This document shows, one piece after another, positions 7,597 through 46,469 of a stretch of 64,000 bases of DNA (position 1 is the first letter of the stretch; each line of letters opens with the position of its first letter). The notes under the pieces were generated by a model. That model was not told where the DNA came from. It saw nothing but the letters and a program-made list of their open reading frames with translations, and did not search any database. Where the stretch lies: assembly GCA_949152475.1 (NCBI GenBank), contig OX424564.1, forward strand, positions 23,806,165 to 23,870,164, written 5' to 3'. The position numbers and the translations under genes are program-made. The stretch comes from Terebella lapidaria (taxonomy: Eukaryota; Annelida; Polychaeta; Terebellida; Terebellidae).

Positions 7597-10500
7597 ATGA
7601 GGACAGAACAAGACACGATGTTTCGCTTGGGAAGCAACCATGAGTTTGACTTGTACTTTGCTCGGGCAGCGTTGGAAGAGATGGAGAATGGTACGATTGA
7701 CTCCCGACGCGGAAGTCTTCCGAGCGCGCCTCCACACCAGCTGCTCATCAAGGAGTCGCACGGACCACGCCGGGCGGCCAGCTGTAAATACCCATCCCGC
7801 GCACGCAGGAAGGGTGGCTCTGTCTCCCCAAGAGACAAGGACGGAACCCCAGCCAAAGTCTTGCCAGAAAATGACGCCATTCCCCCAACCACTCACGAAG
7901 TGGACACAACTCAGCTAGAGATCCAAGAGTCGACGCCACCCCAGCAGATCCAGATGCCTCCCGCGCTACCTGTGGATCCTAGTTTGCTATCCCCGGGTGG
8001 TCCCCGCCTAGACTTTAAGTGCCACTCCGCCCCTCACAGCCGTTCAAGTTCATGGAAGAAGGGTCGCCGACCGAAATCCGGAGTCCTCGAGGAGAACGAC
8101 CACGAAACGTCGAGTAGACCTCGCACGGGGAGTGTACCGCTCGAGGATTCTATCAGCACGAGACTCGAACAGTTGCGTCTCTTGCAGGCGGACGACTGCT
8201 GCGTCGTCAGAAACTTCACGTTATCATCCAAAGGTCTCATCAATAGGGGCGACTCGTTCAAGCGGAAGAGTTTCAGTGTCGCATCTGATCAGGGTAGCGT
8301 CGGCAGCGGACTTGGTGACACTGAACATGGAGTCAGTGTCCATTCAGTAGGGGGCAGCACTGCCGCATCCTCCTGTGCACCTCCGGTATTCAAGGTAGCC
8401 TTGGTCGGCGCCCACGGGGTGGGAAAGACGGCATTGGTCCAACAGTTTATGACGTCAGAGTACATGGGAGCCTTGGAAACCAGCTTTGGTATGTTGTCAA
8501 AATATAACCTATATGACTAGATTTAGTTATATATACAGTACTGTAAATAACCTACAGGTAATGTGAGGAAATTAACATCAACCAATGTGTAAAATATTTC
8601 GAGAGCTAACTTCAATTGCAAGAATTCATTCCATACGTGTAAATGTCATGATGTTTTCTGAAGAAACATTATTGTGCGAACGTATCTATGAATAATAATA
8701 GGCGCAGTATATATGTCCCAAGCAAGTGCGTTCAATAGTTGTTCGCAACACCACATTCCAGTATATGTTAGCAAAGTTAGTGTTTTTGTCTAAGATACCT
8801 CGATGAAAGGCATTCCGTGAGCTGAGCAAAAATGCAATCCACCGCCGCGTTTTCCAAATACCTGACATTCTCACTATATCGAAGACTTCAGTGTGTCTTG
8901 ACTTGCACCAGACTCAAAGGAACTAAAAAACCAGGAACACATCTGATATTTCAAACGGGTGTGGGTTTCACAGGTACATGGGTAGGAAATAATAAATCAG
9001 TTTTTGCCATGTACATGCAGACCTACATGTAGTATATCAAGTATTTTTTACTGGTGATGTTGAATATTGCCTATACATAAAATCACTGCTACTGGTATTT
9101 CCACGAAAGACGGTTCCCTCTGCCAAGGATATGTTTTCCCCACCAAGACCAACTCTCTGGAGAGCTCCCAACAATATTGCCAGGATCATTTCGGTTTATG
9201 CCCGCTATTCGCGTTATATAAGAACCCTAATGCCGAACAAACTGTAGCTTGTTCGTTATACTTAGGCTGGCTCCACCAGAAACAATGCTTAACTTAGACA
9301 GATATTGTAATCCGCTTATACCCCTCCGTTGGGAGGCGATTTTCGTTTACTCCAATGCTGGGTATATTCAGGACAGCAATCTTGCCGAAGTATAACACAG
9401 GGAAAGGATTATTCTTCTTCCATCATATCTACTTTCGTCTTGGGTGATTCTGCTGACTTTCTTTCACTGCATGGTGTCTTATCTTCACCACCTACATCCA
9501 ATCAAGTAACCACGTGTAGAGCTGTATCTCACCAGGTAATTTATAAGTATGTATGGTTGGCTAGGAGCCACGATGTCCACATAAATCCCTACCCATGCAC
9601 CTATATACAAGCCGGCGGAGGGGACTAACCGTTGCTTCCGATGCAACGTGGAAGATATTAATCTGCGCGTGGGGTTTCAATAAGAAGCCAGAGAAAAGCT
9701 GTCTTAGACAGGATGGCGAAAATAGAGTGAATGTGTCACCTCCTTAATTCAAGGTCCTATACGTGGGATTTGGCTACTTGTCTGAGAGCTACAGGTCTCC
9801 TGCGTCAAATGGTGGACCCTTACGCGCATCAAAAGGTCTTTCGCCACTTCCCTCAACCTCTTCCCCTGGCCATTCGCGGAATTCCGCTATAGCCTTCAAG
9901 AAGTGGACGGAGTTAACGCCGCCAAATGCAACGAGGCAGAGGCAGAGTGACAACCTGATATTCTTTGGTAGTCCTTGATGTATACGTAACGTAACTCAAT
10001 TTTTACTCGTCATGCGGGCCGCTGTTGGCTTTTATCCGGGGAATGAAAAGGGCGAAATGCGATCAACGAGGAGACGAATGTAGCTTAGCAAATCTCGGAA
10101 GTCTTTCAGCGACTCTCCGTTGACCAACCACTGTAAAGACACAGTCTGTCGCCGAAGACCACTCTCACACAAAAGAGCTTCTCTTCTCCTCCAGGAGGGT
10201 GCGGCTTATAAGAATGAAGTGTCAGAAGTCTTTATCCCTTCCCTGGGGGTAGGTGACGGGGGAGGAGGGGGGGGGGGGGGCTGACGAGGCCAGCTCTATG
10301 GTTGCTAAGGTGCCTCAAGTCCATCAAGACCTGACGATCACTCCTACCCGTCCGTCATCCTCAACTTCGTCAAGCGGGGCTGTCCCCCAAGGTTACTTAC
10401 CGTGAGTGGACGGGGTCGATCTTGGAAGGACTGCTCCAGGCGTGGACGTCCTGTCAATTCATTTGTCTCACGAAACAGTCTTTTCCGGGATTGTGAACCG

Positions 10501-13500
10501 TCCGTGGAAACTGTCCGCAAGCACGCATCCATTATTGGAAAGCGAGTAGCGGTGTCCGGACGGAACATGCGGAGGAGAATAAAAAATTGCCCGTGCAGTT
10601 GCGAGAAGGTCCTAGTTCATGGTCATTGCTTTTGGGGGAGGAAAAACAGAACTCAATTATAGGCGAATGCATTACACGGATGATGTCTCGGGTGAAAAAG
10701 GATAAACACGCGAAGAAAATTTGAATCAGTAATTGACCCCAGCAAACAACAAGTCGCAATATATGTATAGCCATTATAACACGAGACATTCCATCTAGAC
10801 TTGACATTTGGCCGAGGGGGAAACATGGTTCCAATTTCACGTGGGTGAAAAATTCCTTTGCCACAAAGTACGCGGACAAATCCATTTCCTACCTGTTTTC
10901 GATGACCTTAAACCGAAAAACCCAACTCGAAGTCCATAATGTGGAGCTAATTCCCCGGGCAGGAAGACATTAAAATGTCGCCATTAGGGTGGTGACAAAA
11001 CTCTGTCTTTCGTTCAAATCTTGGGACACGAGGTTAGCCGAGTCACACTATATTGCCTGCTGCAAGAGTAAGATATCGGTCATTACTATTTTATTGCAGG
11101 TGGCGAATCTTAATTACAGAGGAAAATACAATGTCCTTGTACAAAGGAAAGAGGTTAATATATAGTGAATCAAATATTGCTCATAGAAACGTCGGCTGGG
11201 GTAGTGTATGAAATAAACACGTTAATGAATTCATACGATGAATAACATGCGCATTGGTGAAGACAGTCATCACGGATCATTAAGGCAAATGCGAAATGGT
11301 GAAAATAATTGTCACAAATTCATTCGGTTCGATGAAGTCTGTAAGTTAGCGAAAAACAATCGTGCAATAAAAGTCTCCTATTTCGTCGAGGGAGATATCT
11401 GTTGCAACTCTCACTGGCACCCAGAACCGTTTAATCGATCGGGCGTTTGCCAGAAGGACACGGCTTTATTGAACAACTCTGTTCCTGGCAGAAAAAAAAT
11501 AACAGGGCGAGAATCCCATGTTTTGACACACAGCTGTCGGTTTTGAAACCCTCAAGCCGGCTGCACATGGTGCCGCCATATACAGTACGTCTTTCTGACG
11601 TAGGAATATTTTTTCACCCCCCCCCCCTCACCCCTCACCCCGCACCTATATTCAAACATAGGGGAATATGTGTGTACACCCCCCCCCCCCCCCCCCCCAC
11701 ATAACACCTTGGCACCTGGGAATTAGATTCATATGTGAATCCAGGGTCCAAAATACTAGTTTTCAATTTCAACAGTCCATAATGTATAGATCTTGGAGTT
11801 TATGTAGGAGTGTAGGCCGGTCATTAGTGAAAACTAGTGACGTCAAATTTCCGACTGTTTTGATTTCTGTCATGTCGTTCGGGTGGAAATATGGACACGT
11901 GGCTATTTAAAGAGTAATTATCGAAAAGGTCAAACGTCAAAGTCAAAGGCATTATCTTTGAATCCATTTGAATACTGTGTTTCCAAGAGTGGGTGATGAT
12001 GTATGATGTTTATATGTATAATATACGTAGGTGATGGTATCTTTTTTTGCAATCCTACCTACAGCTTTTATGCTGATAATTATCGTGTTTCATATCTGCG
12101 TTATTGATCACGGCAAATTTAAACCTTGACATATGCGCGAGTGTACGAGGCCTGACGAATTAAATTTCAATAATCTATTTTGTGATGTGTGATATGTCTC
12201 AAAATACATGTACATGAATTTGATTCTCAAGTTGATTTGACCAATCGTCTGTGACATTTTATAGCTAGCTTGAAGTCAAAGCTGCGAAATACGTTATTCA
12301 ATTTAATCATTATAATTTATAAGACCGAAATTCTAGTCAGATTAGATGTGAAATTTCAAACGTTTCAAACATATCGGTCTGCCTTTGAAACAGGAACTTG
12401 ACATTTAAAAAATAATATGAGACACGCTCGACGTGAATGAAACATACTTGAAAACTATTGAATAGGGCCTACATACCATGAAATGATATTCTCTCTTCAT
12501 GGAATTTCTGACATATTTTGCGTTTTCTATTTTTTGCAGACGATGAACGTGAGATGACAGTGTCAGTTTTGTTGGACGGTGAAGAAACAATGCTGGATTT
12601 GCACGACATACCCTCATCCACGGTACGTATACAATTCGTATTGAATATTGCGAGAAATGCTCAATCAAAACATACATCATTAAAACCCAAGAAGTGCGTC
12701 ATTATCCTACAACACATGCACACATACACGTACGCACCAACCCGCTTGATCACGTACTAACTAACACGAATGGCTCAGTCCTTGTCTGTTGTAATTGCTC
12801 GAGTAATGATCACTGTTTTGCCGGGTAATCAGACAATGAACGAAGACAGATCACCCGAAAATGGCCATGAACCCGGGAACTACAAAGCAGGGAATTATCG
12901 CCTTTGTTACCATGGCCTTGGGCCAAAAGGGCTGCACAAAATGGGGGCTTTTATCCAACCGGACTTCGGTGCCCGGCTGGGTCTAAGTGAATTTCTCTTT
13001 CATCCTGATTCGATTGACGATATTAGCGGGAACTGACCACCAAGGTTACCGATCAGAAGTTTTCTCTGCATACGAGTTTGTTCCCAGGGACCCAAGGCAA
13101 AGATCATGGTCTTGCCGCTTGCACGTGTATGGGGCCCCTGGCAGCGCGCAAAAGGAGGTCACTAGGCTTGGGCAGGGTGTGGTGTTTAGGAGTCCATACA
13201 AGGGGCAGTAGGTGATGCACGTGGCTTCTGAGGTTGGGCCGTGCAGAGTGAGCTGGGGGGGGGGGTGGGGGGGGGGGGTTCGTAAGGGGCTTGATGAATC
13301 ATGGATGGACATCATCCTTACCAGTTGACAGTTGGGAGAATGGGGCGTCGTGCAGACGGCACACGATAGAGAGCAAGACTGAGTGAATATATCGAGTTAT
13401 CCGCTTGAGTGGTGGGATTCTGGTAGTGGAAATAATGTTCTCCTCTCATCCAAGAACTCAATATCCGGACCGTGGTCTGCTCTCCCCCGGGCGGCCGCGG

Positions 13501-15144
13501 TGCTTGGCACTCGACCCTTGACGCTGAAGGCCATTGCCGTGGAAAATTGCGCTTGTCACTGCAAAGTTCCTAGCAGGTGACGTTTTCGATGGAGAGAGGG
13601 GGGGACTGTGGAATTCCAAGGGGCCACCATGGGGTTGCGCATGCTTACTAAATGGAAATTGGGCTTATATATAAAAAGGGTCCCTGGATATTCGACCGCT
13701 GATAGACCAGATCAACTGCAAAGGGGAATATAATTTGATAAATTGGGAAAAACTCTGATGGCGACCTTCAGTGGCACGACTGGATTTTGGTCACTTGATG
13801 TTATTGAGTACCTAGGGTGGACCATAGCCGATCAGGAGTTCTGTCCCCACTTAATTGTTCATTTCGTCTCATTTTTTTTGGCAGTAAAACGGAAAGAATC
13901 CTGCCGTTTGACCGTGAGATGTTGTGATTAACCGGATACCTAATAAAATTGAATAACATGCCCGCATGCAGTTTGTTAATTGAACTTGTTTTTGAGCTTG
14001 TTTTTATAATATTTGGTACATGGATTTTTATCATGCGGGGACATTCGAAACGTGACCGTTGATCGGCTCAATTGGGGTTCAATAACACAATACAACTCGA
14101 GGCTTGATATTTGCCATATTTATGACATAGCCAGTTTTATTAATTATGTTAACCCTGATAGATGACCTGGTAATATACCTACAATAAACACGTAGGTAGA
14201 ATGGACATATTGGTAATATGCCTAAAATAGACACATTCTAAATATTATACAAAACGAAATAAACGTTCAATTCTATGCCAAAATCTGATTTAAAAATATA
14301 CAAAATGAATATAAACAAGAATTCCAATAATAAATACATATAAAATTTTATCGCTCTCTCTCTCTCCCCAGGACCCTAGTACAGTGGCTGATGCCGATGC
14401 CTTTGTCGTGGTGTACTCCATCACCGACCGTGCATCGTTCGTTCACGCTCTATCTATCACCAACACCCTGCGCAAAGACCGGGAGAGACACCCCGCCATC
14501 ATAGTTGTCGCGAACAAGAGTGACCTCGTCCGCTCCCGACAGATCACCACTGACGGTAGGCCTGCGTGTATGGGCTTAGGCAGGGGACACGTTATGATTT
14601 TTGGTTGACGCTTTTGGGGACGTTATGATTTATGGGTTGAGGACGTTGATCATCATGAATATTAGATGGGCAATGATCATATACCAGGAGAGTATTTTAC
14701 TTTTGAAACCAGTAGGGATTCCATATCTGCCTTCATATCTACATATATTGATAAGGAAAATGAGTGAAATAAAATCATGATTGTAAAACAGTTAATCAAG
14801 GCTCAATTAACCATCACAGGTCATATCTTGAAGATAAACGAGTTTCGATCAATAATTATACTGAATTATTTTGCATTACAGAGGGTCGTGAGGTTTGCCT
14901 GTTGAAGGGTTGTAAGTACATCGAGGTATCAGCTGCCTTGAACCACAAAGTCGACGACTTACTGGTCGGGATTGTCTCGCAGATTCGTCTCCACGCCCAG
15001 CGGATGGAGAAACGGAAGAAACCGTCGGCGGACGACTGCGATATTGACATCACCTGCACCTCCGGAGCAAAGGGGCTTTTGCAAAAGTTGTTCAAGCGGC
15101 AGCTCTTTGTGTCAAAGTCGTGCGATAATTTGCTTGTTTTGTAA
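7597..15144 (+). CDS. RGK-family (Rad/Gem/Rem-like) small GTPase, 4 coding exons
   Basis: Coding exons are 7597-8488, 12540-12622, 14372-14555 and 14882-15144, all with GT-AG borders in matching phase, giving 473 aa. The start is fixed by an in-frame TAG at 7585-7587. The long N-terminal half (about 1-265) is basic and Ser/Pro-rich, with RRGSLPSAP- and RKSFSVAS-like stretches that resemble 14-3-3 sites. The G domain starts near 265: P-loop GAHGVGKT (271-278) and NKSD (373-376). As is usual in RGK proteins, the canonical DxxG switch II motif is absent, replaced by a DIPSST stretch. The C-terminal tail has a basic segment (KRKK, LFKRQLF) and ends CDNLLVL, with a Cys seven residues from the end, the RGK hallmark. 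RGK proteins bind voltage-gated Ca2+ channel beta subunits and reduce channel activity, and many also act on the cytoskeleton. The N-terminus is longer than in vertebrate members (roughly 260-340 aa). Which of the four vertebrate paralogues it matches cannot be decided; it is probably pro-orthologous to all. Confidence 0.93.
8489..12539 (+). other. RGK intron 1
   Basis: A 4.05-kb intron between the P-loop exon and the short switch-region exon. No coding sequence is recognised. It contains G or C homopolymers at 10267-10280, 11617-11627 and 11679-11698. The acceptor is a clear T-rich tract ending TTTTTTGCAG. Confidence 0.85.
12623..14371 (+). other. RGK intron 2
   Basis: A 1.75-kb intron with donor ACG|GTACGT and acceptor (CT)n-CCCCAG. 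It contains a G-rich stretch at 13255-13278 (11 and 12 G separated by one T) that could form a G-quadruplex on the plus strand. No coding sequence is recognised. Confidence 0.85.
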
Positions 15145-15682
15145 AAGCGAGAAAATTATTGATTTTTTCTCATGTGCAGATGGTATATGGATATGTGGAA
15201 TGTTGGGAGAACAGTGACATTTATGTCTTTGACGAGTTCAATTGGTAAAGTGTAAATATTACGTGGAACTGAATGAATTAAACACTGAATCTCAATATCA
15301 TAAATATTCGTTTCGTGGAAAAGGAGGATTATGTTCTGCGGGAGAAGGGTACATAATGATGGACGGCGCACATAGTTTTTCAAGCAAATGTTATGATTCG
15401 CACAACGACGATATTATCAAAACCTGCCAACAAAGTAGAAACCAGTATATGTCAATGATGATTGTGTCAGAAACGTGGTTGTGTTCATTATGTTGTATTA
15501 GTTTTGTAATGAGCTTGTCTAGTCTTCCATCATTGAAGTAGACCACAAGTTGAGAAACATTGTACTTAAAACCCAAATATGTCTGAAAATGTGGTTGTTC
15601 GTGTCAAGCATTATCCCCAATTATAAATCCTTACTTTTGTGAGTTCAATGAATTGTTCATGTATAGAGCTATTTTCAGAAGA

Positions 15683-15688
15683 AATAAA
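15683..15688 (+). terminator. Candidate poly(A) signal of the RGK gene
   Basis: AATAAA about 540 nt after the stop codon, the first well-placed canonical signal on this strand. A second, CAATAAA-type signal follows near 15752. Confidence 0.45.
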
Positions 15689-16393
15689 ACGTACATGCCA
15701 AAAATTATTTATTGTTCGCATGCATTCTTATGCTTCAGTGACATCAAATTCAATAAATTAAAATTATCCATGAACATCCGTAAAATTCCATTTGCCAACA
15801 CTTTGCACCCATGGTACTCCAAGTCATTTTCACCATGTTATATCTGACATAATTATGGTTGGGAATGCATGATCTGACTGCAGAAGATGACCTCGACACC
15901 ATACTTTCTGATGAACATTCCATGTCACCCAAAACTGCCAGAGGCATGAGGCCACTCGGAGAAATTGTCAAATTTTTCATTAAAAATTCAAATAGTGTTT
16001 TTAGCCAATTGAGATCCTGACTTGCTGTAACAACAATTAGAGTCCACAAGATTAATTCATCATTTATCGAAAATTAGTGCTAAAAGGTCACCTTTTATTT
16101 TACCAATTCGTCTGCACTAATATATTTTAAGACTACTGATAAATATCACCTGCTGTCAAGTTCATGTATCACTTGATGTGGAGTTCACTTACACAGGTTA
16201 TTCAAGGGCCGATTTAACATTTTACTTTTTACATTCACGCTTACTAAGTCTCAGTTCGAACAAAACCTTCGGAGATTTTCGATCCAGGAGCGAAGTATGC
16301 ACTTTGAGGTGGGAATGACCTTATATAGTAATCATTCCAAGTCAGGATAGAGACTACCAGAAGATTCACAAGTTTGTTTTGAACACACATTAC

Positions 16394-18027
16394 ACAAGAA
16401 AATGCAGCTAACTGCGGGAGACGACATTAGAGCTCGAACACATCATCAGCACCACGACAGCTCAATGTATCTTACACAATGCCACCCCCCCCCCCCCCCA
16501 AAAAAAAAATGCTACCATATCCTAACCCACATGATTCCCATTTATTCCCGTATATTATCATTCATTTATATTCCTAATAAGTAAACTTTTTTTCTTTTAA
16601 TCGATCAACGAAACAGATACACCTGCTAAAATAATATTGAACCTCAATAAATATCCTTAAAAATATTGGAAACTAAGAGAAATATCTCCATCTGATATCA
16701 TGATATAGCCTAACACATGCCTACTAGGCAAATTAAAAGACCAAAATAAAAAGGCTTCGCAACCCAGCATGAAACACTTTGTCATGTGATAAAATACATA
16801 AAATTACGGTAAATGTACCGTATTGATCGGCATATAGGCGCATGCGCCTATATGCGAGTTATTGCATATTTTCCGGCAGTTGAAAAATAAACTGTCTCAC
16901 TTAGAGGCGCATGCGCCTATATTCGAATATAGGCGCACCCCAATATTCACTTATAGGCGCACCCCCAAAGGCTTCCAAGTCACACAGATTTAGGCCTCAT
17001 TTTTATATCAAAATATAGTGTATTTACGTTTTTACTGACAAATATATATCAAACGGTTATCTATACCAGTTAATCAAGTGATAACATAGTGAAATGAAAC
17101 CACGTGATATCACGTGATAGATCTATAAGGCCATGTTTGAAAAATGGATGACAACACAATAACAGCGTGTGTGTAGGTCGACATATTATCGGGCGCCAGT
17201 ATCATCTGCATATGTCTAGGAGGAAACCTTCTGTACTCTTCTGTATTCTTGATACTACTTATATATCCTCGTTTGGCACTGAAATGGCCTTCTTGAACCC
17301 AAAATGCCGTTAAACTTTTTTTCTTATTCTTCTTCTGTACTCATGTACCCCGCGAATGGCACTGTGTAATACAACAATAGACATATTTTCTAAATTGCGA
17401 TCCATTTCCATGTACGTGTTTTGGGTTTTTTCCCGATGACATGCGCCTATATGTGAATATTGATTTTCGGCGGGAAAAATAGGAAGTGTCTCACTTGTAG
17501 GCGCATGCGCCTATATTCGAATATAGGCGCATATTCACTTATAGGCGCATGCGCCTATATGCGGATCAATACGGTAGCCGTGGCATCGCAGACGGATCGT
17601 TCTGTTTACTTTATAACGCCAAAGAAGGCTACACGCAAGCTTACATCTATGCATGTACGAATTGCTGAACAGAGAATTGTGTGTTCCAAAATACGCATCA
17701 TTGCGGTAAAATTTGCATTGCATTCTGGGAACGTCAATTTCCATCGGCTCCGCCATTTTGACGTTTTCAAGACGACCTGAGCGTTTTTCGTATTTTTCTC
17801 AAAACTAACACATCGATTTATGCTTTATATATCTGTGGTATATTCGAAGTTTGCTATCAATTGGAGAGATTGTATGTCAAGGACGAAGAAAATACTAATT
17901 TGAAATAGGTGTCTAAACGTTTACATGCCAAAAATGGGCGTTGATAAGTTGGCATGAAACCTCCATGAAAAAGTCAGCACATAGACATGTAGAGAGTTGG
18001 GGGCTTAGCCCCCAACGCTCTGATGTC
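16394..18027 (+). repeat. Dispersed repeat, copy 1 (carries an inserted MITE)
   Basis: The first line, starting CAAGAAAATGCAGCTAACTG, is almost identical to the start of a repeat at 46951, and both copies end with a GTTGGGGGC hairpin followed by CGCTCTRATGTC. Without the 757-bp insertion at 16818-17574 this copy is about 875 bp, against 828 bp for copy 2. Both keep a block (17695-17765 here) with GCATTCTGGGAACG, resembling the half site of ZNF143/Staf, and CCGCCATTTTG, a YY1-like site. There is no coding sequence. The 3' hairpin with CTRR nearby recalls Helitrons, but the flanks do not fit an A/T target, so the family is left open. Confidence 0.8.
16818..17574 (+). mobile_element. TA-flanked inverted-repeat MITE (Tc1/mariner-type target)
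   Basis: A 757-bp element flanked by TA at 16816-16817 and 17575-17576. Its ends are inverted repeats of the form CCGTATTGATCNGCATATAG followed by GCGCATGCGCCTATATGCG. Inner copies of the same palindromic GCGCATGCGCCTATA block occur near 16903 and 17504. The second copy of the host repeat (near 47318-47326) has an uninterrupted GTAGTCGTGG at this point, so the empty site is visible. There is no transposase, so it is non-autonomous. A TA duplication is typical of Tc1/mariner elements; that assignment is inference. Confidence 0.85.
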
Positions 18028-18132
18028 AATAACACATATACGATGACCAATTTATGAAATTCGAGGTAGATATAAAATTGAGACTGATAAATCCTTGCAG
18101 AGTTTTATGGTTAATTCAGGTTAAAAATGTAC

Positions 18133-18325
18133 CGATCTACATGTATATGAATTCCTATCAGATAGAACAAACATGCGTAATAAACATAAATTTGGTTTTG
18201 AACACTGTGGGGGACATTCCATTTAGTCAATCGATCTATATGAATTCCTATCAGATAAACAAACATTCGTAATAAACATAAATTTAGTTTTGAACACAGT
18301 GGGGGACACTCCGTTTGGCCAATCA
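18133..18325 (+). repeat. Two-copy tandem duplication, about 97 bp
   Basis: Units 18133-18231 and 18232-18325 share CGATCTA, TGAATTCCTATCAGATA, AATAAACATAAATTT and TTTTGAACAC with GTGGGGGACA, at roughly 85-90% identity by eye. No coding sequence. Confidence 0.85.
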
Positions 18326-18327
18326 AT

Positions 18328-19060
18328 GTCATGTTAAAAGGCATCAAATGATGCATAATAACACGTGCTTACTCATAACCAATCCATAATCTATACACCC
18401 GTGAGAATCTGTTGATCGATGACGAATATGAGCACCGCGGATGGCCGAGACCTTTAAGGAAACACTCAATGTGAACTAAGATCGATTCAAGTTCTTGTTC
18501 ACCCAAATGCACTGTATGTCAAATTCTATTCATAATATATTGTACATATATCATATCAAATGCAAACTCAAAACTATATTTTTATTCGTTTATAAACTTT
18601 CTCCAATGACCAGCTGACATATTTTATAAAACACTGTACTGTTCAGAATTAACCGCAGTTGAGTTTCTATTCAATTGATTTCAAATGAACATCGTTCAAG
18701 TTTGTCTTTATTCAGTATAAATTGGGTGGTGCAAATACACCAGTTTACAGTTTGCCAAATAAGGTAAAGTTCGGGTAAACAAACCACACGTGCATCAGCA
18801 CGACAGCAGCGGTTTTATCTGTCAGAGTAAACCAGTGTGAATACTGTACACGAATAAAAATCTCATATATTTACAAGCCCACCCCTTGAACACCCTGGAT
18901 TTCTTCCTGACAATTCAAGAAGGAAAACTGGTCGGGATTCTCTTCATTTCTATAAATTTATTGAACCGAATGACAAGTTGGCAGCTGCAGGAACATACGA
19001 GGCTATGATGTCCGATGGCTGCCATTTCAATTCTCGCTACCTCGGGGAGAATGAGCAATG
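18328..19060. other. Intergenic, nothing recognised
   Basis: AT-rich sequence without open frames of note, repeats or RNA genes that could be identified. Confidence 0.4.
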
Positions 19061-19799
19061 TGTGGCGATTTTGCCCTAAGATCGCGGCAGGTGATTGTAA
19101 AACTACATGCCATTTGTGTGGCCTTTTCTGTCTTGGCCTTGTTTTGACACGCTCCGTTCGAGCGGGCGTTGCTACGGCGACGCATTGTAATTTACGTTAT
19201 TCCAGTAAACTATAACAATGGTTTGATTACACCTCGCGTGCGTCCTTCAGTTTGTAGTGTATTATATATACACTGGAAGCTACTCGATCGAGGAGATTGT
19301 CCGAGAGAGAGTGAACAGGACGCACGTAAGGCTCGCCATGAGCTTTGCGTTCCCTGGTCGTGGGTAGAGGCCCCTTGGGGCCCTCGGGACAATTTCCATA
19401 GGGGGGCCCGGGCTGGGAGAGACGAGTTGCTGACTCGGGGGCGCAAGCCCTGTGGATCGCCAGTTCTCTCCCTTCCCGGGACGGTGTGATGTAGGCTCTG
19501 GCTAGTTCGTCGGACTGTACGGGGTTCCGTCCCCGAGGCAGACCGCGGCTCGCCAGGCCCCTCCAGCTAACACCGTGGTGATGAACTAGTTTCTGAACGG
19601 TGTCCGTAGGCCTGGGCGTGTCGGGTGGGCTGTTACCTGGTTACCGTAAATGTTAGAGTGGTTACCGTGTCCGCAGTGACCTCCGGTGAGCGGCGCCGCC
19701 GCAAGGATCCGGAATAGCGGATGCGCGTCCGCAAGGACTCGTGGTGAGAGGACTATCCTCGAGGATCCTGAAGAGTGGACGACAGTCAATAACTTTACA
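19061..19799 (+). repeat. GC-rich repeat, copy A
   Basis: It starts TGTGGCGATTTTGCCC and ends near AACTTTACA, collinear with copy B at 20517-21169 but strongly diverged (about 30% or more by eye). It is far more GC-rich than its flanks. Shared blocks: GATCGCGGCAGGTGATT, GGGACAAT-TCCATAGGGG, CGGGGTTCC, ACCGCGG and AACACCG-GGTGATGA. The 3' part holds imperfect repeats of a GGTGAGCGG ... GAGGATCC-GGATAGTGGAC unit. GGGGTTCCGTCCCC resembles a tRNA T-arm/B box, which would fit a SINE-like or pol III origin, but no complete tRNA shape is found. It could also be an end or leader of a retroelement fossil. Family unknown. Confidence 0.7.
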
Positions 19800-20516
19800 A
19801 ATGCATTACACCGAAATAACGATGCAGTTTAGCAACTGTGATGCTAAATAAAATATTTTGTGCCGCACTTAAACGTCGAGATTCGAGAACTTTAATACAA
19901 GTCATTGGTTTGGTGAATTGATTGGTATTATTGAGAGACTATTTGTATCATCATAATCTGTAGGCCTATCAGTCTGGTATTTAAAGTGATATTGGAGGAA
20001 AGTTATGAATTTTTTCATACCTTTCTGATCGAACGAAGAAAGCATGATAGTTATATATCTGCACTTGTATGCCCAAACAGACTCCCCTTTCTAATTGATT
20101 TCTTTGCGAGTTTCTGGTGGAGATATTTTGATTTTGTTTACAGTAACACCATTCTCGGTTCTTTGTATCCCTTGATGCAATGCAATTGCATCTTACTCGT
20201 ATATGTCTGAGCTAATCGAGCGTGAAATGGGTTAAGTCAGAGCTAACGGCGCACAAAAGAAAAGAAAAGCCGCTGCTTGTGTTGTCATATGCTTCAACAT
20301 CATCGTTTATCCATCTGATCAAGCGTAATTTGTTTTGTAACCCATTTTTCTGAGACCACAGGCATATAAGTAATTGATTTGGAAAAATAGTTTTCCTGCC
20401 AATACCATTGTCGACTTTTAAATGTCAAAAATATCTGAACAATTTGATATGTGCTAGATATGCTCCAGTACTACTGGGGGCATAGGGGGACAGGCTACAT
20501 ATTGTGTGTGGCGATT
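19800..20516. other. AT-rich spacer between the two GC-rich repeats
   Basis: No recognisable gene. The base composition drops sharply to AT-rich between the two repeat copies, so they look like separate insertions or a duplicated pair rather than one transcription unit. Confidence 0.5.
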
Positions 20517-21169
20517 TTGCCCAAAGATCGCGGCAGGTGATTCTTTCTAAATACGCTTGTTTCTGGCCTTGTTTTGGACGCTTCTGTTCGGAGCACGTGC
20601 GCTACTTGGCAACGCCCTCTAACTCTCTCGCCCAGTATGCTGTAAAAATGGTCTTCGTCACTTCCCTCGTTGTTCAGTGGAGTTGTCTCAGAGCTGAACA
20701 AGGCGAGAGAACGACGGAGGGCTCGGCCATGAGCCCTACGTCCTCACTCGGCTAAGGCCCGCGAGGGCCCGGGGACAATATCCATAGGGGGCCCGGGTGG
20801 GGAAGACCTTGATGACTCAGGGGTGTACGCCCTCAGGATCACCGGTCTCCCACCTAGGTTGGTGCGACACAGGCTCTGGCGGACCGTCGGGCTGTCCGGG
20901 GTTCCAATCCCCCGTGGCGGACCGCGGCGAGACGGCCTTGCAGTTAACACCACGGTGATGATCGTGTATCTGAGTGGTGTCTGCATGACTGGGCTCGCAG
21001 GGCGGGATGCTCCTGGTTAACGTTCCGTAGTAAATACTGCACATGCACTGACCCTCGGTGAGCGGACTATCTGCGAGGTTCTGTGGATAGCGGGTGCACA
21101 TCCACCGTGACCCACGGTGAGCGGCTTATCCACGAGGATCCGGGATAGTGGACGACGTCAAACTTTACA
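20517..21169 (+). repeat. GC-rich repeat, copy B
   Basis: Direct-orientation partner of copy A. It has the closest match to a pol III B box (GGTTCCAATCC at 20900-20910, inside a CCGGGG...CCCCCG stem). The 3' end has about three imperfect copies of the GTGAGCGG...GGATCC...GATAGYGG unit. There is no meaningful open frame. An old non-autonomous repeat is the simplest reading. Confidence 0.7.
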
Positions 21170-21689
21170 TGTGTATGAACTAACAATATTTTTCAAATGA
21201 AAAAGCAATCCGTGTTTCGTGGCAAATAGTTCATTTTTCAAAGACGTGTCGTAACTGACAGTCTGCAATTGAATTTGTCAACATTCTCAATAGGCCTATG
21301 GTACCTGTCACCCAGCGATGGGGTGGCTATTTTCGTCTACAGCTCTGTAGGGACATTTAGTGCATTAGACAATGGTGACACGAAAAACTGCATACAGTGA
21401 TTGCATACATGATGCACACATGATCATATCCATCTTGGTGATAAAGTATATGACACCAATGTGAGAATGAAACTTCAATAAAGAAAAAGCGCATCATGGT
21501 GAAACCAAAAGGCCTAGCAACGTTATTCTGTCCACATCACCACATATTTCAAATATTATTCCCCAATATCATGTGATCTATACTTGGTTTTCTGAATTCA
21601 TCAACCACAATACAACATATTAAAGGGCCCAAATTCAATTATGGTTATATCCCGCCAACGATCGCCTCTGACATGGAGTCATCTAGATT

Positions 21690-23040: not shown

Positions 23041-23049
23041 CACTTTTTA

Positions 23050-29965: not shown

Positions 29966-29998
29966 TTAGGAGAGGTCGCCTTTTATGGGTACGATCCT

Positions 29999-30052
<54 letters not shown>

Positions 30053-30053
30053 T
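29999..30053. repeat. (AAT)n microsatellite
   Basis: About 17 AAT units directly after the 34-bp minisatellite. Confidence 0.97.
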
Positions 30054-33000
30054 CGTAGTTTCATAATTCATAATATTAATAATTCGTGTCTATAAAATCA
30101 CGGTGTCATACACGTACAATAATGTTCGAAATCAATATTCCAAAGTAAATAAACTGTTCTCTGACATGATTATTTGATGGAATCTTGTAAAGAATACCGC
30201 CAGATGTTGTATTTCTAAACACCCCCACCCCCTCTCTCTCGCTTACACAGATACAAAAGTCGCTTGACAACATGAGATCAACACGATAACAGCTCGATAA
30301 AACCAGCTTCTCTCTCTCCCTCTGTTCTACATTTCATGAATACAAAAGGAGGCCATGCTACCCAGGATTATGCGATCAATAATATAATGTGGGGTCAGAT
30401 TTGCATGTATCAAAGCGTGCAACCCAACTTTCTGATAATATAGGACCGATAAATGATTTTCCAAAAACCATACCCATGCAATGTGATTGAAATATGAACC
30501 GCGCTATTATGTGATTTCATGTTGGCCTACGATAACAGCCCATTGCATACCTGTATCTGTGATGCACACATGATTTCATACAGATTATTGCCTTTATTTA
30601 CCCATCCAATCAAAACTCACACATATTTCTCTTTTTCACCGTGAATATAATTTTATAATCAGAATAGGGTCTACTAAACTATTGTTCATTCAACATTTGA
30701 CGCAATATTACTATTTTCTGTGCGTTTTAAACACTACATCACCACAGGGCAGGGTCATATACCGGTACGTATACGCATAAGTTATGCTTGGTATATGGCG
30801 GGGTATATGCACCAGACACCCTTAATTGAGAGGCTTTTGTATGTGTACGCGAAACATTTACTTCAGTATTTGTACGAATATGTTCTCTCAACTGAGTCAT
30901 TGAATATCATATCAGGACCATGTAATACTGTTAACATTACGCGGGCGATATCACGGGTATTATTGTTCTACTTTCCAGACCTCGCCGCGATAGAAAAATA
31001 TCGATTTTTTTTCTGCCCCGAAAGTGCATCGCTTTGCAGTTTTTCGACTTCCACAGTAGTAGGCCGGGTTCCTCTAAATAATTCCACGATACATATTCTT
31101 TCAATAATAAATAATAGTTATGTAATTCATTTTGGAAACTATAAAAATGTGACATACATGTATGTGAGAAGAAAAAAACCGGTGATATTTGTGCTTAGTG
31201 TACATGTATATACTTTCATGTAAATAAATATGGAGTTAGTGCAGACAAATATTCATCGTGTTCTCTCAACATACAGCCAAGACATAATGTAGGACTTTAG
31301 CCTGTGATATCATGACCTTGCTTCGATTTGCTTGCCAAACAATTGGCCAATCCCTCTCATATTATAGGTGAATAGAGTGTAGGTGTCGATGAAGATATTT
31401 TCAAGTCAAACAAGAGGTGTACATTATGTCATGTATGGTGGAGATTCATTAATATCATAGGATCGGATATTATTGCACGACAGATCGACCCGACTCAAAT
31501 TTTGCAGTTCAGAACGAATAAATACATTTCGTACACACTATTCATGCGTTGAGATTTATAATATTCAAATGTATTAGCATATGTAATTCTTATAATTATG
31601 TTATCTATGGAGTGAGGGAATAATCTAGAGAATGATAATTATATTGTTACGATTTATATACGATGGACTATAACCAAAGTTATCAGCGATTGAGTACATG
31701 TATTGTTAATTGTGTGTGCATTGCTCCATATTCGTGTTGTTTGCACACGTGATTGAAACAGTTAGGCCCCATCAGAAATACATAATATACAGTAGTGTGA
31801 AGCTTCATAGCTAGGGGGCCTACCACTTATCCCAGCAAATATGTCCCTTTCTTTCTAGTCGCGATTTCATCTTTGTTAATCTCCAATTATTTGTGATCAA
31901 TTTCCGGCTCTTCTGATAACAATTGAATACATTTTTTAAAGAATATAATAGAATTTTGAAAAATCACACTAATTTTTCAGCTCAGCTAGATCCAAGTTGA
32001 TTCAAGAAATATTTCAAAAGAGAGATATAAATGTTCTCTCTACTCTGTGGATGTATAGTGAGAACATGTCCATCACTTCACTATTGTTGTTTCGTCACAC
32101 GTGTGTGTGATATTTAGTGGTCAATTACCATATTATGCCATGTTATTTTCTCAGAAGGTCATGTACAACGAGCGTGTACGTATATGTATCATTCTGGAAC
32201 ATCACGGAAACCGTTTTGAACGGTACGTAGAGCTCATGAATGACCACCCATGTACCAATATCTGGCAGTGATCCAGAATTGACATCAGCTTCTGGCATCA
32301 GTGGCTTCTGGAAGCCCTAGCCAATCACCCACCCCACCCCCACCCCCACCCCCACCCCACCACTCACCCTCCCCCACCCCCGTCATAACACTTACGTCAT
32401 CATCCATCAGTACCTCTCGCCTGCCCCCCCCCCCCCCCTCCCACAACTTTAAAGTCAATAGATGAGATCTGTCAGTGTTTGGAAAGTGTTAAAAATATCT
32501 GATATTCTTGAAAAAAAAATATGTATTGACGTATTTAGTTTTGTAATCCTTTCATCCCGCCTATAGTTTTGTTGTCATTTCTTATGATGAACATATTAAT
32601 ATTATGTGAATTTTCACTAAATTGGTAGCTGTGAGACCGCTTCATATTATCACTGACTTCATCATGGAATTCTCCACATATTACATGACAAAATACCTTC
32701 TCTTGTGTGTACTCCATTCTTTTGTGTCAAATTTACTCAGTTACGAATAATTTGATTTGAATATCTTGTTTGATTGTGGTACATGTGTATTTCGTGTTGA
32801 AATGTATACAGAAATACACAATAATGTTTTCCTTTTTTTGATCCTTAAATTTGAGGAATATTTCAATATTCATGACATTTTTTTGTCCTATTTCTACTCT
32901 GATTTTTTAAAACTCGTTAGCAGTATTTTTCGTTATTTTTTAAGGCGAAATTTGGTGGAAAATAGCCGAATTGACTCCTAGGTGAAGTACGCCAAGTTAT

Positions 33001-33110
33001 AGAAAGATAGCATTCAGCATCGCAAAAAAAATCGTCAACAGCCAGTGTAAACATGTTAGAAAAATCAGAGTATACAATACATGTAATCACTGCCAAATCT
33101 GCAATAAATC
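30054..33110. other. Intergenic, no gene recognised
   Basis: AT-rich sequence. It contains a (C4-5A)n tract at about 32322-32385 and a 15-nt poly-C at 32424-32438; the complementary strand could form G-quadruplexes. A 167-codon open stretch at 30720-31223 lacks an ATG at its start and any recognisable domain. Confidence 0.45.
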
Positions 33111-33142
33111 AAAACTCAAGCCGTATTGGTAGTTTCAGTTCT

Positions 33143-33148
33143 TTTATT
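33143..33148 (-). terminator. Possible distal poly(A) signal of the Maf gene
   Basis: AATAAA on the minus strand. It would give a 3' untranslated region of about 2.2 kb for the Maf gene (35308 down to about 33120). Long 3' UTRs are common in large-Maf genes. Weakly supported. Confidence 0.25.
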
Positions 33149-35308
33149 GATATCATCTCTGTACGTATCAGAACAGTCGTTTACATGTACTCAAAATTAC
33201 ATTCCTGGTCATTTCTCCAACAATATCATCTGTTCTTCAGATAAAAACATGCAAAACTGTCATGTACACAATAATCTAGATCAAACCGGTTCAACAGTAC
33301 AATGCCCGCACTGAATACAATCAATAAACTGTACATGCAAAATTATTACCTAAACTTTCTGACTCATTAGCACACTCAAACCATGCTGTAAAGCATGCAA
33401 TTTCTTTTACTACCAATAAATGCTGCAAGTTGGTATTTCCTATCGCCAATTCTCAAACTCCGCTCCCATTGGGGGCATCTGACAACATCATAAATAATGC
33501 TGGATACCAGCTCAATGGGGCTAATCCACATATCCTTTGCCAAGACCCCTCTGTGACATACAGATTTTGTTTGTTCAGCATCTGTGGTACAACAAAATCT
33601 TCACACGTCGAGGCAATGTTTTTTTTTCAATTTTTTTTCATTTTACTTTTTTTTTGGTTGTCCGACATGGGACAGTTTTTTTGTATGATTTTTTTTGACA
33701 ATGATGGATGAAAACATGATTTGGATGACGTTGTTGAGTTGTTGTGCCTTTTTTTCGTGTTTTTGATGTCTTTTCGCTTTGTTTTTTATACTTGTATGTT
33801 AATGCGTTACAAAGCATGTTACAATGTTCACAATTATATACACACGCAACTGGTCACCTTTACAGCAGCCAAACAAACAAACAAACACACACGAGAACAA
33901 ACAAATATGCGTGGATGAATGGACAATACACAACATATAAGTAAACCAACTTTCAAAGTCCATGTTACAGAATAAGCAGGGTTGTGGTCCGTGGTCAGTC
34001 CGCATGGAAACATACTCTCCCATTTTAGGTGGGGTCATGTACCATTTTATAAACATTTTACGCTTGCAAAATCGGTAGAATGTGAACTGTAAACCTGGGC
34101 AGCATAGCCAAGAACAGATCACTGGGGGGACCAATTACCAAGGTGCACGTTTTACCAAGATACCAACTTGATGTCAATAGAGGAATACTATCTCTTATTA
34201 TCTGCGCACCATTTGGGGACTTATATTAAAATAACATATTTTCCAGTTTGACATCAACCGTGTACCTTGGCATACGGCCAACACAAGGTCTGATCTCTTC
34301 CCCGAGACATTTTTCTTCCTTCACTTCGGTACAGAACATTTCAATAAAATCAAACACATTTTATCAAAAAAAAAATCCTACAAAAAAAAAATGAACAAAT
34401 AAACTCTACTAAAACAATCCGTTTACATCAACGGTCTCCACACAAAAATTTCGAATATGTCAACAACTTTGCAAAACACTCAGGCACTGGAAACATATGT
34501 ATTGTGCCTATATCAAGGTTTTGGTATATATCCAACAAAACAAATACAGTAACATAAAACAAAACACAAGAGCAACTGCTTGCTACAGAGTTCAGTTTTT
34601 CTTAGCAACCATCAGAATGCATGGGCTTAACAAGTGTGAGAAATAAAGGCATGCCCCATGACTTTTGCACATAATAAATTATTTACACACATTTCCAATC
34701 AAACAGAATTAAATATACAAAATAATGCCTACCAAGTCAGCATGCCACATTCTATTTACTAGTAGTATATGACACACAATGAACAAATCTTTCTCCTCAC
34801 ATCACGATAAAATGGTCGATATATTTATATATTACATTGTATTATCAAACTGTGACAATAAGCCGTCTGAGTAGATTATACATGAATATGAACATATAGC
34901 TCAATTGATAAAATGTTTGACCATATTCCAGCCAGAAATCCAACAAATGCCAACAGACACCAGACCCCTTGAACATGAATAACAGTACGTTTGCCATCAT
35001 ATAACCAGTGTGTTGTACTTTGTGAGACAAACTCTGACCGCCCAGTGTCTCTATGGTCTGCGACTGCGATGGGGGACCATTCCCATCGCAGGAGACCTTG
35101 ACACACTGGGCCACACATCGTGAGTCACAACCATATACATACAACAAATGTCTCACAAAGATTTGTTGGTTTCTGTTAGAATAGGCCACCATTTGTTCAA
35201 AGCATATCATTGACTATACATGTTCGACTTTAATGTATAGAACACTATCGTCTTAGCTTTCTACAGACACCACCCCTTACACTCACTGTTCAGTCACTAA
35301 CGACACTC

Positions 35309-36178
35309 TTAAAGTCCAGCGGCGTCCAGCCTCGCGGAGAGCCGATCATTGTCGCACTTCAGCGAGTCACGTTCCTCGCAGACTTTCCTCAGCTCCTGGC
35401 GAAGAGTGTCCAGCTGCGTGGTATAAAACTCGATCATCGAGGTCTCCTGGCGCAGTGCATTGACTTCTGCCTCAAGGCTCTGATTGACCTGCTCCAGTTC
35501 GAACTTGACAGTTTGACGCTTCTCGCGGCTGTTGGCGGCGTAACCCCTGTTCTTCAGCGTTCGCCTCCTCTGCTTGATTTGAAGAATGGATTCTTTCGGT
35601 ATTCCCTGGAGGGCGCGATTCAGTTCCTTGACGCTCATTGCAATCAGGCACTCGTCAGTGAGAGTCAGCGGCTTTGTTGCCGTCTTTCTGTACGGCATGC
35701 TCGAGGTCACATGCGACTTCGGCGTCACGATCTTACCAGCATTCGAGTCCTCCATGTCGCACTGCGGAAGCAGGCTCTCAATCGCTGGCTTCAGCTCATC
35801 CTCAAAGCTGGTGCTGTCAGCTTCAAAGCCAGTCTGCGTGCCACTCGCAGCTTGGAGACCAGTCGTATGGACATGGTTAGAGATGTACATTGCCAGTTCC
35901 TCCACTTGGGAGTCGGGCTGGTTGGGATCGAGCAGTGGGCCATCGCCATGGAGCAGCATATCCAAATCTGCAAGACTTGCTTCACCGATCATGGCTGGAG
36001 TCTGGGGAACATCAGGGGAAACAGGACCAGGACTACCCAGTGGGCTGTCAACTGGCTGAACCACAGCAGAACCTTCCTCTTTGACTGTCTCCAGATCCGG
36101 AAAATTCATCAAGTCCGAGAAATCCATGTTTATATCTTCCAAGCTAAAAGTGAATAGCTCTTGGTTACCGCTTTCCAT
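35309..36178 (-). CDS. Maf-family bZIP transcription factor with N-terminal activation region, single exon
   Basis: An intronless frame of 289 aa. The first ATG is at 36178-36176 and an in-frame TAG lies five codons upstream, so the start is firm. Residues 18-35 ([18 protein letters not shown]) resemble the large-Maf N-terminal motif (NDFDLMKF-EVKKEP type) and contain a VKEE sumoylation consensus. Then follow closely spaced S/T-P sites (about 45-62). The extended homology region is at about 172-201 ([20 protein letters not shown]), followed by basic region [20 protein letters not shown] (about 202-221) and a leucine zipper to the C-terminus. The EHR plus RGYA signature is specific to Maf proteins. 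Small Mafs lack an activation region, and vertebrate large Mafs are single-exon as here, so a large-Maf relative is the best reading. Odd points: the usual SCR of the basic region is NSR, and the zipper is diverged. It binds MARE-type DNA as a dimer by family knowledge. Confidence 0.9.
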
Positions 36179-42281: not shown

Positions 42282-45200
42282 TCAAACAGTCTCTATTTTC
42301 AAGTCTAGAGGCTGTAACGACTTTGCTTTAAGAATCATATATTCGGAAAGCATCCAAAGTTTGTCAGCCGTGTCTTTGCAGAGGGCTTCATCCGACGGCG
42401 GACACTGGAAACAGTTATTGAAATAGTAGCCGCTCACGCCGTCCAGCTCATGAGCAGTGGCCACAAACACTGTAGTCGAGGAGCCTTGTTGCTGAAAACA
42501 GGACAAAGAATAAATGCTTAGACAGTGTATAGTGTTTTTTACCACTGTAATTGTCACATGTAATAACAGGTTAGTTTTCTAGTTAACATAGATCTTCAAT
42601 CAATGAATTTGGAGAAAAATAATTGTTATCTCTTATGCATCTTTGCAAGTATTTATAAAATCTTTTCTTTTTTCACATAGAAATGTATCATATGATCCGC
42701 AATTCGGCAGATATTTGAAACACTACATATAAATAACATGCACCATAATAAAAAGTATTTCTTCTCATTAAAATTAGACAGGATCTGTTCAAGTTCAGAA
42801 AACACACCTTGCTTTTGGAGAAGGGTCGTATAAACGTGTACAAAACTCTCCAGAACCACCAGTGTCTGATCAGTCCTGTACTGATCATATTCCCGGGATG
42901 CAAGGCATTCGACGTGATACCTTTCGACGCATAACGACGATGCAGCTCCATAGAGAACAGAACGTTACAGAGCTTTGACTGGTTGTATGCAAGGATCGGT
43001 CGGTAAAGGTTTTGTGGAGGGTTTAGTTGCTCCATCGATACTGTGCTGTTCTTCAGGTCTGTGAACCTACGATGAATACGTGAATAATGTTAAATGCTGC
43101 AGATTATATTATTTGAATTCAGTGGAAACAGAACATGTACTTCAAATATGAGCAAGTATTTTACAAGTGTATATTCCTTTTCCATATAACAATGGGATAT
43201 AATTGTTATAATATTTGTTTCGTTCATTTTGCTATCAACAAAAATGTTTTATCCAAAGGGTCCACAAAAATACGAGACCTACTTTTCAACACGCTCGTCC
43301 TTTCTACTTATACATATATCTATATACTCACAAACAATGCTAATTCATCTCATCCTATCATCAAATAAAATCCCGTATGTATATAGCCAGGATACCTGAG
43401 CGACTCGGCACAAACCTGTGTGACTCTGCCGTCACGGTCACTATTCGCGAGGGCGCAGACTTCTCCAGCACCCCCACGAGGCAGTGCACCAGGTAAAAGT
43501 GGCCCAGGTGGTTCGTCTGGAAAGTGGTCTCGAAGCCGTCCTCCGTGAGAGAGTACGGGACGGAAAACACCCCCGCATTCAGGATCAGCACGTGTAGAGG
43601 CCTGGATTCATGGAAGAAATGGTGAGGAAATGGTACAGTTTTTGCATGGTTTGTAGGAGGTGTACTTCCCAATTGATGTTAGTATAGTAGTTATAGCGGT
43701 AGGTGCTTTCCTGTCATTGCATTATAGGTTGCATTTCCCAACTGATTTTCAATAATTTTTAGGCATGCAAATTATGGTATGACCACAATATGGCCATATT
43801 ACTGTAAAACGACTAATTTTGGCGGACAATTTTTTTGGCGGATTTGGCGGTAGGGAAAAAACCGCCAAATCAAATCATCTGCCAAATTAACCAGATATAT
43901 GATAAGGAATGTATGTGGTTTTGGAACCGCCAAATTAAATCTCCGCCAAATGACGTGGGGCTCAAAACCGCCAAATTTAATTGCCGCCAAAATTAGTCGT
44001 TTTACAGTATGTTATCCATGGTCACATGATGAAAGCCGATGAAATGTATATGAACACCAAAACTAACCACTCCTTATTTAGGTAGCTCTCGGCGAAGTCT
44101 CTAACGGTTGCCAGACAACATAGATCCAGAACCATCAGTTCGACCTTGGCTTGAGGCCTCTCCCTCCTGATCGCGTTGACGGCGGCGTAGCCTTTCTTGG
44201 TATCACGACAGGCCAGTACGACGTGGGCACCGTGTAGAGCCATGGACCGCGCCGTCTCGTAACCTGTGGGAAGAAGGAATATCATTGGAAATCTGAAATA
44301 TCTTTTCGCTGCCAGATAAAGTTGCATGAAGTCAGATTTTATCCAGAACATTTTATTGCACGAGATGAATAGGGAACTTATTTAATATATCAAGTTCTGC
44401 TTTCTGTTCAAATATATAGTTGCATTTCATCAAATTTCCATTTAAAGCACTATTTTGTGGTCTTACACTGACTTTTTTTTTACGTCATTTCTCAAATCCT
44501 AACAATATCAAACTGTAATTTTTCAATTCACAAGCAAAATCACGGAATTTACCACGAAAAAACCAAGTTGACTCACCGATACCAGAGTTTGCCCCTGTGA
44601 TGACGACATACTGCCCGGTCAGGTCCCGCCCTTGTAACACCTGTAGCGCTGCGGTACTCGCGTCAAACCGCTGCTTGATCTCTCTAGACTTGCCGTCCTT
44701 TTCCTCAACAGCAAACGCCACACGTGGATCAGTGTATGTCGTCTTCTGGTTGATATGGCTAGTGTTGTAAAGGAAAAATTATAATGTGATAATGATAATG
44801 ACAAATGCTTTGCCTGTAAGTACATTTTATTCATGATTATGTCAAAAATAAAAAAAAAAGTATAAATGGTGCAATGACATCCATTATACATGCCACATTC
44901 AGAGATACATTAACATGATATAACGTTATTGATGTTCGTCAAACACTTATTTTCATAATATAGTTTAAAGATTATATAATTTATGTAAATTAACTGTACA
45001 CATTCAAATGTTTGTCTGTGAATTGGCTTATCTATTATCTGATTATCCATGTAAATTCATCTACTGTACACCAAACATTTTCAATTATCATGATAGAATT
45101 GTTCCCATAAAATCATTATGAACGAGTACTTACTCCACAAAGTACACTTGTCCCTGAGCATTAATTTTTCTTTCCCATCCGTATGGCAGCTCTACGAGTA

Positions 45201-46469
45201 TGAAAGACGGAAAACTGTTAGATTACACATGAATGTGTTACTGCTCGTTATGCACATAAGTCATTTCAAGTAATGCTATTTTTTCACACATATAGTAGAC
45301 ATACACTAGTACATGTAATCCACAGGTACAAATTACAATGTGAATATGATGATTTTGTAGATCTTCAAATCACAATGACCCATTCAGCATGTACATTGTA
45401 CAGACCTCCCGCAACTCGCTTCTTCTTCCCATTGACCGGATGACTCCACTGTGTGTCCAAACTCATATGACTGCAATTGTGCATGAATGGAAGAAAACCA
45501 TTATCCTGATTATCATGATTATGTATAAATGGAAGTTTGAGAGCACATGTAGGATACAGAGGAGTCAGTGGACTCTTATACTGACTTGTTATAATGAACC
45601 CATTACCCAATAGTTGTGAATGAGCCCTAGCTGGCCTGTTTTGCATAGGTGAAGTTACTTGAAGGGGCACTATATGGGATTCCGTATTTAGGGGATTTCC
45701 AGATTTGTCGGCCGACGCTGTTTTATTTATAGAACAATAGGTCAGAATACGTTTTTGTCCCAGGATCTCTGCCGAGCCAATGCTCAGATCAGCCCAGGTC
45801 GGCTCGGCAGAGATCCTAGGTCAAAAACGTCATCTGACGTTTTGTTCTATAAATAGAAGCGTCGGGAGAAAAATCTTGGAAATCCCCTAAAAACAGAATC
45901 CCCCATAGTGCCCCTTTAACTCTGGGGTGGATGGCCCGACCTGTGCCATCCACCCCAGAATGAAGTCATTTAATTTTGCAGTGCTAATTTCTGAGGTAGA
46001 TCAAGTTTCTAGAAGGAAAATGGATTTGGAACTTTGATTTTTTCCACAACAGCTTTTCAATTTATATTTCTTGAATTCGGGTCACCATATCGTCACAGTA
46101 CCTAATCATCGAACCTCTCCCTAATCCTCGACCCCTGCAAACGGCTGGGCAAAACTTAAATAAACTAAACTGTGAAATGTGCTGAAATGTGTATTAGAAA
46201 AAGTACTTTCAATGTGATTTTTGTCAGATGTCTGTTTTGCAAAGCTGTTTGGTAGTGTTTGCAAGGGTCGATGATTAAGGACAGGGTCGATGATCAGGTA
46301 CCCTGACGCTAGTAAATGAATCTAGACCAGAGTCCAAACCACAGTCCGCAAATTATCAAGAACCAGGAACATGTTCTTACTTTGCATAGTAAACTTTGCC
46401 TTCTAGTGTCACCCTTTCCTCCCAGCCTGCTGGCAGCTCGTCTTCGCTATCTGTATCGAAAGTCGGCAT
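42282..46469 (-). CDS. WWOX: WW domain-containing oxidoreductase, complete, 8 coding exons
   Basis: Coding exons on the minus strand: 46469-46381, 45470-45406, 45191-45134, 44758-44577, 44263-44068, 43601-43416, 43066-42808 and 42491-42282. All junctions are in phase, and the joined frame is 414 aa, as in human WWOX. The N-terminus shares [15 protein letters not shown]1 (about 12-44) has both signature Trp (W16, W38) and the YY pair of the human Tyr33 site (Y27-Y28). WW2 (about 53-85) has Tyr in place of the second Trp, as in human. GKKKRV between them matches the human nuclear-localisation motif. The short-chain dehydrogenase part has TGANSGIG for cofactor binding, LNAG, and catalytic YNQSK. 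The C-terminal part GGxYFNNC-RC-PS and LW-LSE is conserved. WWOX is an adaptor and tumour suppressor binding PPxY proteins; its oxidoreductase substrate is not settled. The gene spans 4.2 kb, against more than 1 Mb in human. Confidence 0.97.
43802..44007. mobile_element. TA-flanked MITE in a WWOX intron
   Basis: A 206-bp element with TA at both sides (43800-43801, 44008-44009). Terminal inverted repeats of about 26 bp begin CTGTAAAACGACTAATTTTG, with repeated TTTGGCGG words between them. It lies wholly in the intron between coding exons 5 and 6. No coding capacity. Tc1/mariner-type by target only. Confidence 0.85.
45662..45916. mobile_element. Foldback MITE in WWOX intron 1
   Basis: A 255-bp near-palindrome with arms of about 110-120 bp. 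Left arm: AAGGGGCACTAT, GGGGATTTCCAGATTT, TTATAGAACAA, AGGATCTCTGCCGAGCC, with the complement of each in reverse order on the right. The flanks do not show a clear target duplication. No coding sequence. Confidence 0.75.
45921..45959. repeat. Perfect 15-bp hairpin in WWOX intron 1
   Basis: TCTGGGGTGGATGGC (45921-45935) and its exact complement (45945-45959) with a 9-nt loop, immediately after the foldback MITE. Confidence 0.85.

Follow-up and report, generated by a model that had tools for sequence, protein, structure and literature searches.

RGK, Maf-family and WWOX genes as close neighbours on an annelid chromosome that carries further families of a vertebrate paralogon

Gene content of the block

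The window, a 64-kb stretch of Terebella lapidaria DNA (positions 23,806,165-23,870,164 of OX424564.1, here C11, in an assembly of 761.6 Mb in 438 contigs), contains three consecutive genes: an RGK GTPase gene on the plus strand (7597-15144), a Maf-family bZIP gene on the minus strand (35309-36178) and WWOX, also on the minus strand, with its ATG at 46469. Both outer coordinates of the block, 7597 and 46469, are exact. Between RGK and Maf (15160-35142), six-frame scans reveal no Pfam domain at E<=0.1, and between 35140 and 45132 the same scans reveal none except those of Maf and WWOX, whose recovered exons serve as a positive control. Within the reach of Pfam, RGK, Maf and WWOX thus adjoin one another directly. 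The interval between the first two includes a G+C-rich segment at 19150-23270 (0.49 at 20-24 kb) with overlapping open frames and no Pfam domain. On the flanks, scans of a single strand of the upstream 10 kb and of a single strand of 54-64 kb gave no match.

With splice sites set by eye, the RGK gene starts with an exon (7597-8488, plus strand, ATG at 7597) that encodes a long N-terminal region and the P-loop GAHGVGKT, where matches to the Ras and Roc P-loops fall below cut-off. A further exon (14372-14555, plus strand) contains the G4 motif ANKSD, and the last exon (14882-15144, plus strand) ends with SKSCDNLLVL followed by the stop, with no CAAX box. RGK GTPases are characterized by a conserved, cysteine-containing C-terminus that lacks a CAAX box and by a non-classical G3/switch II. 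The small exon expected between these exons for switch II/G3 was found neither by motif search nor by tblastn. When the pieces are joined and compared with the PDB, the ten best distinct sequences are all RAD, GEM, REM1 or REM2 (98.9 to 79.8 bits), and the best match outside the RGK family is M-Ras (63.7 bits). The exon layout is common to other RGK loci of the same genome.

The coding exons of WWOX (42285-46469, minus strand, with the last one inside 42285-42578) encode two WW modules followed by a short-chain dehydrogenase. Against the PDB, which contains only the WW domain of WWOX, the protein matches that domain in 1wmv (53.9 bits). We take the gene to be WWOX from this architecture and its likeness to the human protein. 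At 4.2 kb the gene is compact, leaving little intronic room for enhancers. Human WWOX lies at 16q23 as the direct neighbour of MAF, and the two genes are convergent, whereas the worm genes are arranged in tandem, both on the minus strand. The earlier note had described the WWOX-Maf adjacency as still readable; this stands with respect to immediate neighbourhood, but the orientation departs from that in humans.

Beyond WWOX lies a minus-strand gene (exons at 49034-49600) with a weak Methyltransf_16 match below cut-off, presumably ETFBKMT-like judging from the sequence, and then a plus-strand gene for an MRM3-like mitochondrial rRNA methyltransferase (exons at 51613-54058), which matches MRM3-like_sub_bind with 34.9 bits (cut-off 27) and SpoU_methylase below cut-off. 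The human counterparts, ETFBKMT on 12p and MRM3 on 17p, are outside the 8q/14q/16q/20q paralogon. Between WWOX and the ETFBKMT-like gene (46830-48300), similar stretches occur in opposite orientations, resembling a short mobile-element remnant.

Class of the Maf-family gene

The Maf-family gene is a single open frame of 289 residues, with its ATG at 36178 and its stop ending at 35309. It contains the extended homology region and Maf-type bZIP that define the family, with bZIP_Maf scoring 78.4 bits (cut-off 22). Large Mafs have a long acidic N-terminal region and are encoded in a single open frame, whereas small Mafs are short proteins without a transactivation region. The window protein, with its 289 residues, is not of the short kind, as its bZIP is preceded by about 170 residues (172 as delimited here) that are 17% acidic and 4% basic. 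It resembles MAF, MAFA, MAFB and NRL in having bZIP_Maf after a long acidic N-terminal region, but differs from these large Mafs in its basic region, YAANSREKR, in the absence of a detectable Maf_N domain and in an identity nearer to MafG. Its highest identity is to MafG (53%), which also outscores MafB in bits (75.5 vs 60.6) and in identities over the first 60 positions (39/60 vs 30/60).

In the protein, Maf_N is absent at E<=1 (Pfam). A genome search for this domain likewise gave no match, but the same search was silent in every control genome, so that absence from the genome is not proven. Local alignments of the N-terminal region with the motifs of large Mafs score like shuffles. A Maf tree built from 10 sequences, six of which are wholly or partly provisional, leaves the window protein unplaced; its branch measures 1.8 changes per column, and its shortest path leads to MafB, without support. 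A bZIP_Maf search of the genome yields seven matches: an ordinary small Maf on C1, the window gene, a gene on C14 named CNC-like by eye, and four weaker bZIP matches. The window gene is a very divergent member of the family whose class, large or small, is not settled by its sequence. Because the search brought up no other non-small Maf, the best reading is a derived, fast-evolving orthologue of the large Mafs, a reading that draws mostly on position and is partly circular.

Expansion of RGK genes on C11

A genome search with the window RGK returned 32 matches, 23 of them on C11. Fetching and reading these revealed both core RGK exons at 10 loci on that chromosome (1.95, 2.09, 2.10, 12.72, 21.11, 21.34, 21.39, 23.82, 30.67 and 30.93 Mb). 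Two fragments at 2.114 and 2.120 Mb (L031:247-408 and L031:6748-6966), close to complete copies, comprise exon 4 only, and that at 2.120 Mb has an in-frame stop. The match at 35.40 Mb is another Ras gene without the RGK C-terminus. All 12 RGK loci found are therefore on C11, between 1.95 and 30.93 Mb; the 9 matches elsewhere have 25-38% identity to the window RGK and are unlikely to include RGK genes.

In the tree, all 10 worm copies group together (100/99) inside RGK (99/98), which points to a single RGK gene in the common ancestor of worm and vertebrates that has since multiplied in the worm. The worm genes are like RAD, GEM, REM1 and REM2 in core sequence, in their CAAX-less C-terminus and in the shared clade, and differ in having reached 10 copies and 2 fragments by an expansion in the worm lineage. 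The earlier note had counted one RGK, one Maf and one WWOX gene within 39 kb, asked for a tree to confirm a single copy before the vertebrate duplications and read the window as a preserved, unduplicated ancestral state. The 39-kb cluster is confirmed and the single RGK clade agrees with the expected ancestry, but the count is correct for the window only, and with the family multicopy on C11 the description as an unduplicated ancestor does not hold for RGK.

The window RGK scores highest against RAD and GEM (225 and 224; next 210 and 216) among nine copies, the partial one at 2.09 Mb having been left out of this comparison. It also has the shortest end branch among the four copies without near-twins, and we consider it the likely founder of the worm expansion. 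An expansion found only on one chromosome illustrates how a family can grow in number without its linkage group being broken up.

Families of the vertebrate paralogon

Human RGK and large-Maf genes share chromosome arms: RRAD (16q22) with MAF (16q23), GEM (8q22) with MAFA (8q24), REM1 (20q11) with MAFB (20q12), and REM2 with NRL (both 14q11). The members of each pair are megabases apart. Further families were chosen by hand for having, like Maf and RGK, human members on 8q, 14q11, 16q and 20q. Those of the ETO/CBFA2T, CHD6-9, TOX, junctophilin and NFAT families are on 8q/14q/16q/20q.

In the worm, all five families searched are found on C11. ETO/CBFA2T (NHR2) gives a single match in the genome, at 17.63 Mb. 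A CHD6-9-like gene with two adjacent BRK domains is at 13.17 Mb; single BRK domains occur on C3 and C16, which we take to belong to other BRK proteins. The TOX HMG box has one match (31.45 Mb, 78% identity), in which the two stops counted are both past the conserved exon. Junctophilin matches at 25.48 Mb (78% identity), where another of its exons lies close by, and the other 20 of its 22 matches are on small contigs. NFAT was recovered at the second query: the Rel-homology Pfam model found only Rel/NF-kB-like genes, whereas an NFATC query placed 3/3 matches at 37.17 Mb. Read back, the matches of all families but junctophilin look like the named exons.

C11 makes up 5.46% of the assembly, so that by length alone five of five would be expected with a probability of 4.8e-7. 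None of the seven control loci is on C11 (PBC on C16 and C13; Rel/NF-kB on C7, C1 and C4; the small Maf on C1; the CNC-like gene on C14). Because the five families are all on C11 and the seven control loci all elsewhere, the linkage of RGK and Maf very probably predates the vertebrate duplications, and at the level of the chromosome this upholds what the earlier note had proposed. The test is independent of the assignment of the window gene to the large Mafs.

The vertebrate paralogon of 8q, 14q11, 16q and 20q contains the same families that the worm has on one chromosome, with the difference that RGK is secondarily expanded in the worm. This resembles the bilaterian ancestral linkage groups as used in PMC11371463, whose families share a single chromosome from one bilaterian to the next: C11 joins Maf, WWOX, RGK, ETO, CHD6-9, TOX, junctophilin and NFAT, families picked by hand. 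The same source describes non-clitellate annelids as keeping these groups, often fused and rarely split, with the genes within fused groups mixed after fusion (PMC11371463).

Origin of the neighbourhood

We consider it probable that several processes together account for the locus. C11 would descend from an ancestral bilaterian linkage group that was quadruplicated in vertebrates into parts of 8q, 14q11, 16q and 20q, and RGK, Maf and WWOX would be linked since all three sat on this one chromosome. The close association of WWOX and Maf is most likely microsynteny that has been retained, with control elements of Maf, situated over WWOX or past it, keeping the pair together. The window RGK would be the likely founder of an expansion confined to C11 in the worm lineage, and the window Maf would be the rapidly diverging counterpart, by orthology, of the large Mafs of vertebrates. 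Linkage at the chromosome scale needs no special cause, because non-clitellate annelids keep their linkage groups.

For the WWOX-Maf pair, a regulatory cause is most likely by analogy with vertebrates, where PMC2745767 proposes that WWOX is a bystander in a genomic regulatory block of MAF; in the worm WWOX may play the same part. The worm is like the block in this source in that a Maf-family gene directly adjoins WWOX, and is unlike it in its compact WWOX; the tandem orientation described above is a further difference. The simplest cause of a neighbourhood shared by worm and human would be the same constraint, older than vertebrates.

The spacing of RGK and Maf is a separate matter. Since genes are mixed within linkage groups, 20 kb between the two asks for either retention or luck. 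Human genes give no support for tight adjacency, because their RGK-Maf pairs are megabases apart, which also favors an explanation from chromosome-level ancestry alone, with RGK genes spread by tandem and dispersed duplication and one landing near Maf by accident. With 12 RGK loci over 1.95-30.93 Mb of C11, an RGK gene near Maf is less surprising than a single copy would be, and the chance of one within 20 kb, 0.5% (5 clusters) to 1.2% (12 loci), cannot be neglected when the locus was singled out by eye. An accident would, however, have had to involve the very copy that is most vertebrate-like of the 9 compared and whose end branch is shorter than those of the other three copies without near-twins, so that accidental spacing is a serious possibility but not the one we prefer. 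Tight adjacency as the ancestral state is likely, judged from one invertebrate genome. Whether RGK, Maf and WWOX together form a bilaterian microsyntenic block held for >500 million years by a shared regulatory landscape, dispersed as four copies in vertebrates and with its RGK as the parent of the one-chromosome expansion, is a bolder proposal that we put forward tentatively, as one that could nearly as well be right as wrong.

The identity of the Maf gene could be questioned on the grounds that MafG leads in identity and bit score and Maf_N is missing, as would be the case if it had arisen within this lineage from a small Maf, or were a third Maf, after loss of the large Maf. We regard this as unlikely, because the gene adjoins WWOX on the chromosome of the MAF paralogon, has a long acidic N-terminal region in a single open frame as large Mafs do, and coexists with an ordinary small Maf on C1; the unsupported shortest tree path to MafB points the same way. 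That three unrelated locations were joined by pure chance is very improbable: the data come from one genome and the locus was selected after the fact, but five of five further paralogon families are on C11 and the WWOX adjacency is shared with humans. A fast-evolving large Maf on an ancestral linkage group is the reading that we favor. The locus connects both human families of four genes each, and WWOX, with a single chromosome from before the duplications, and the age of the MAF-WWOX regulatory block relative to vertebrates becomes testable.

A literature search on paralogon linkage of RRAD/REM1, large and small Mafs and CHD7/CHD8 found no report, nor did most of the search on an ancestral linkage group of TOX3, CHD9 and JPH3; on WWOX-MAF microsynteny or a regulatory block a single paper came up, and a term search of the main text of three synteny papers found no mention of WWOX or MAF. 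An entry on the MAF-WWOX pair would most likely be found in Irimia et al. 2012; the pair may have been published, and we do not claim otherwise.

Mitochondrial contig and small contigs

The mitochondrial contig, C438, is 15,973 bases long and has its protein genes all on one strand (invertebrate code). Named by eye, they follow the order nad4L-nad4-(rRNA stretch)-nad1-nad3-nad2-cox1-cox2-cox3-nad6-cob-atp6-(repeat stretch)-nad5, which we take to be the annelid ground order and which points to an annelid as the probable host. ARAGORN found no tRNAs on this contig. The presumed control region contains a long TA-rich repeat (L020:3270-3700).

In small contigs such as C18, C146, C181 and C417, genes of Rab/Ras-like and MORN type have numerous TAA and TAG codons in frame but little TGA, and C417 also contains a second, divergent COX1. 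These contigs seem to come from a ciliate, either an associate of the worm or a contaminant.
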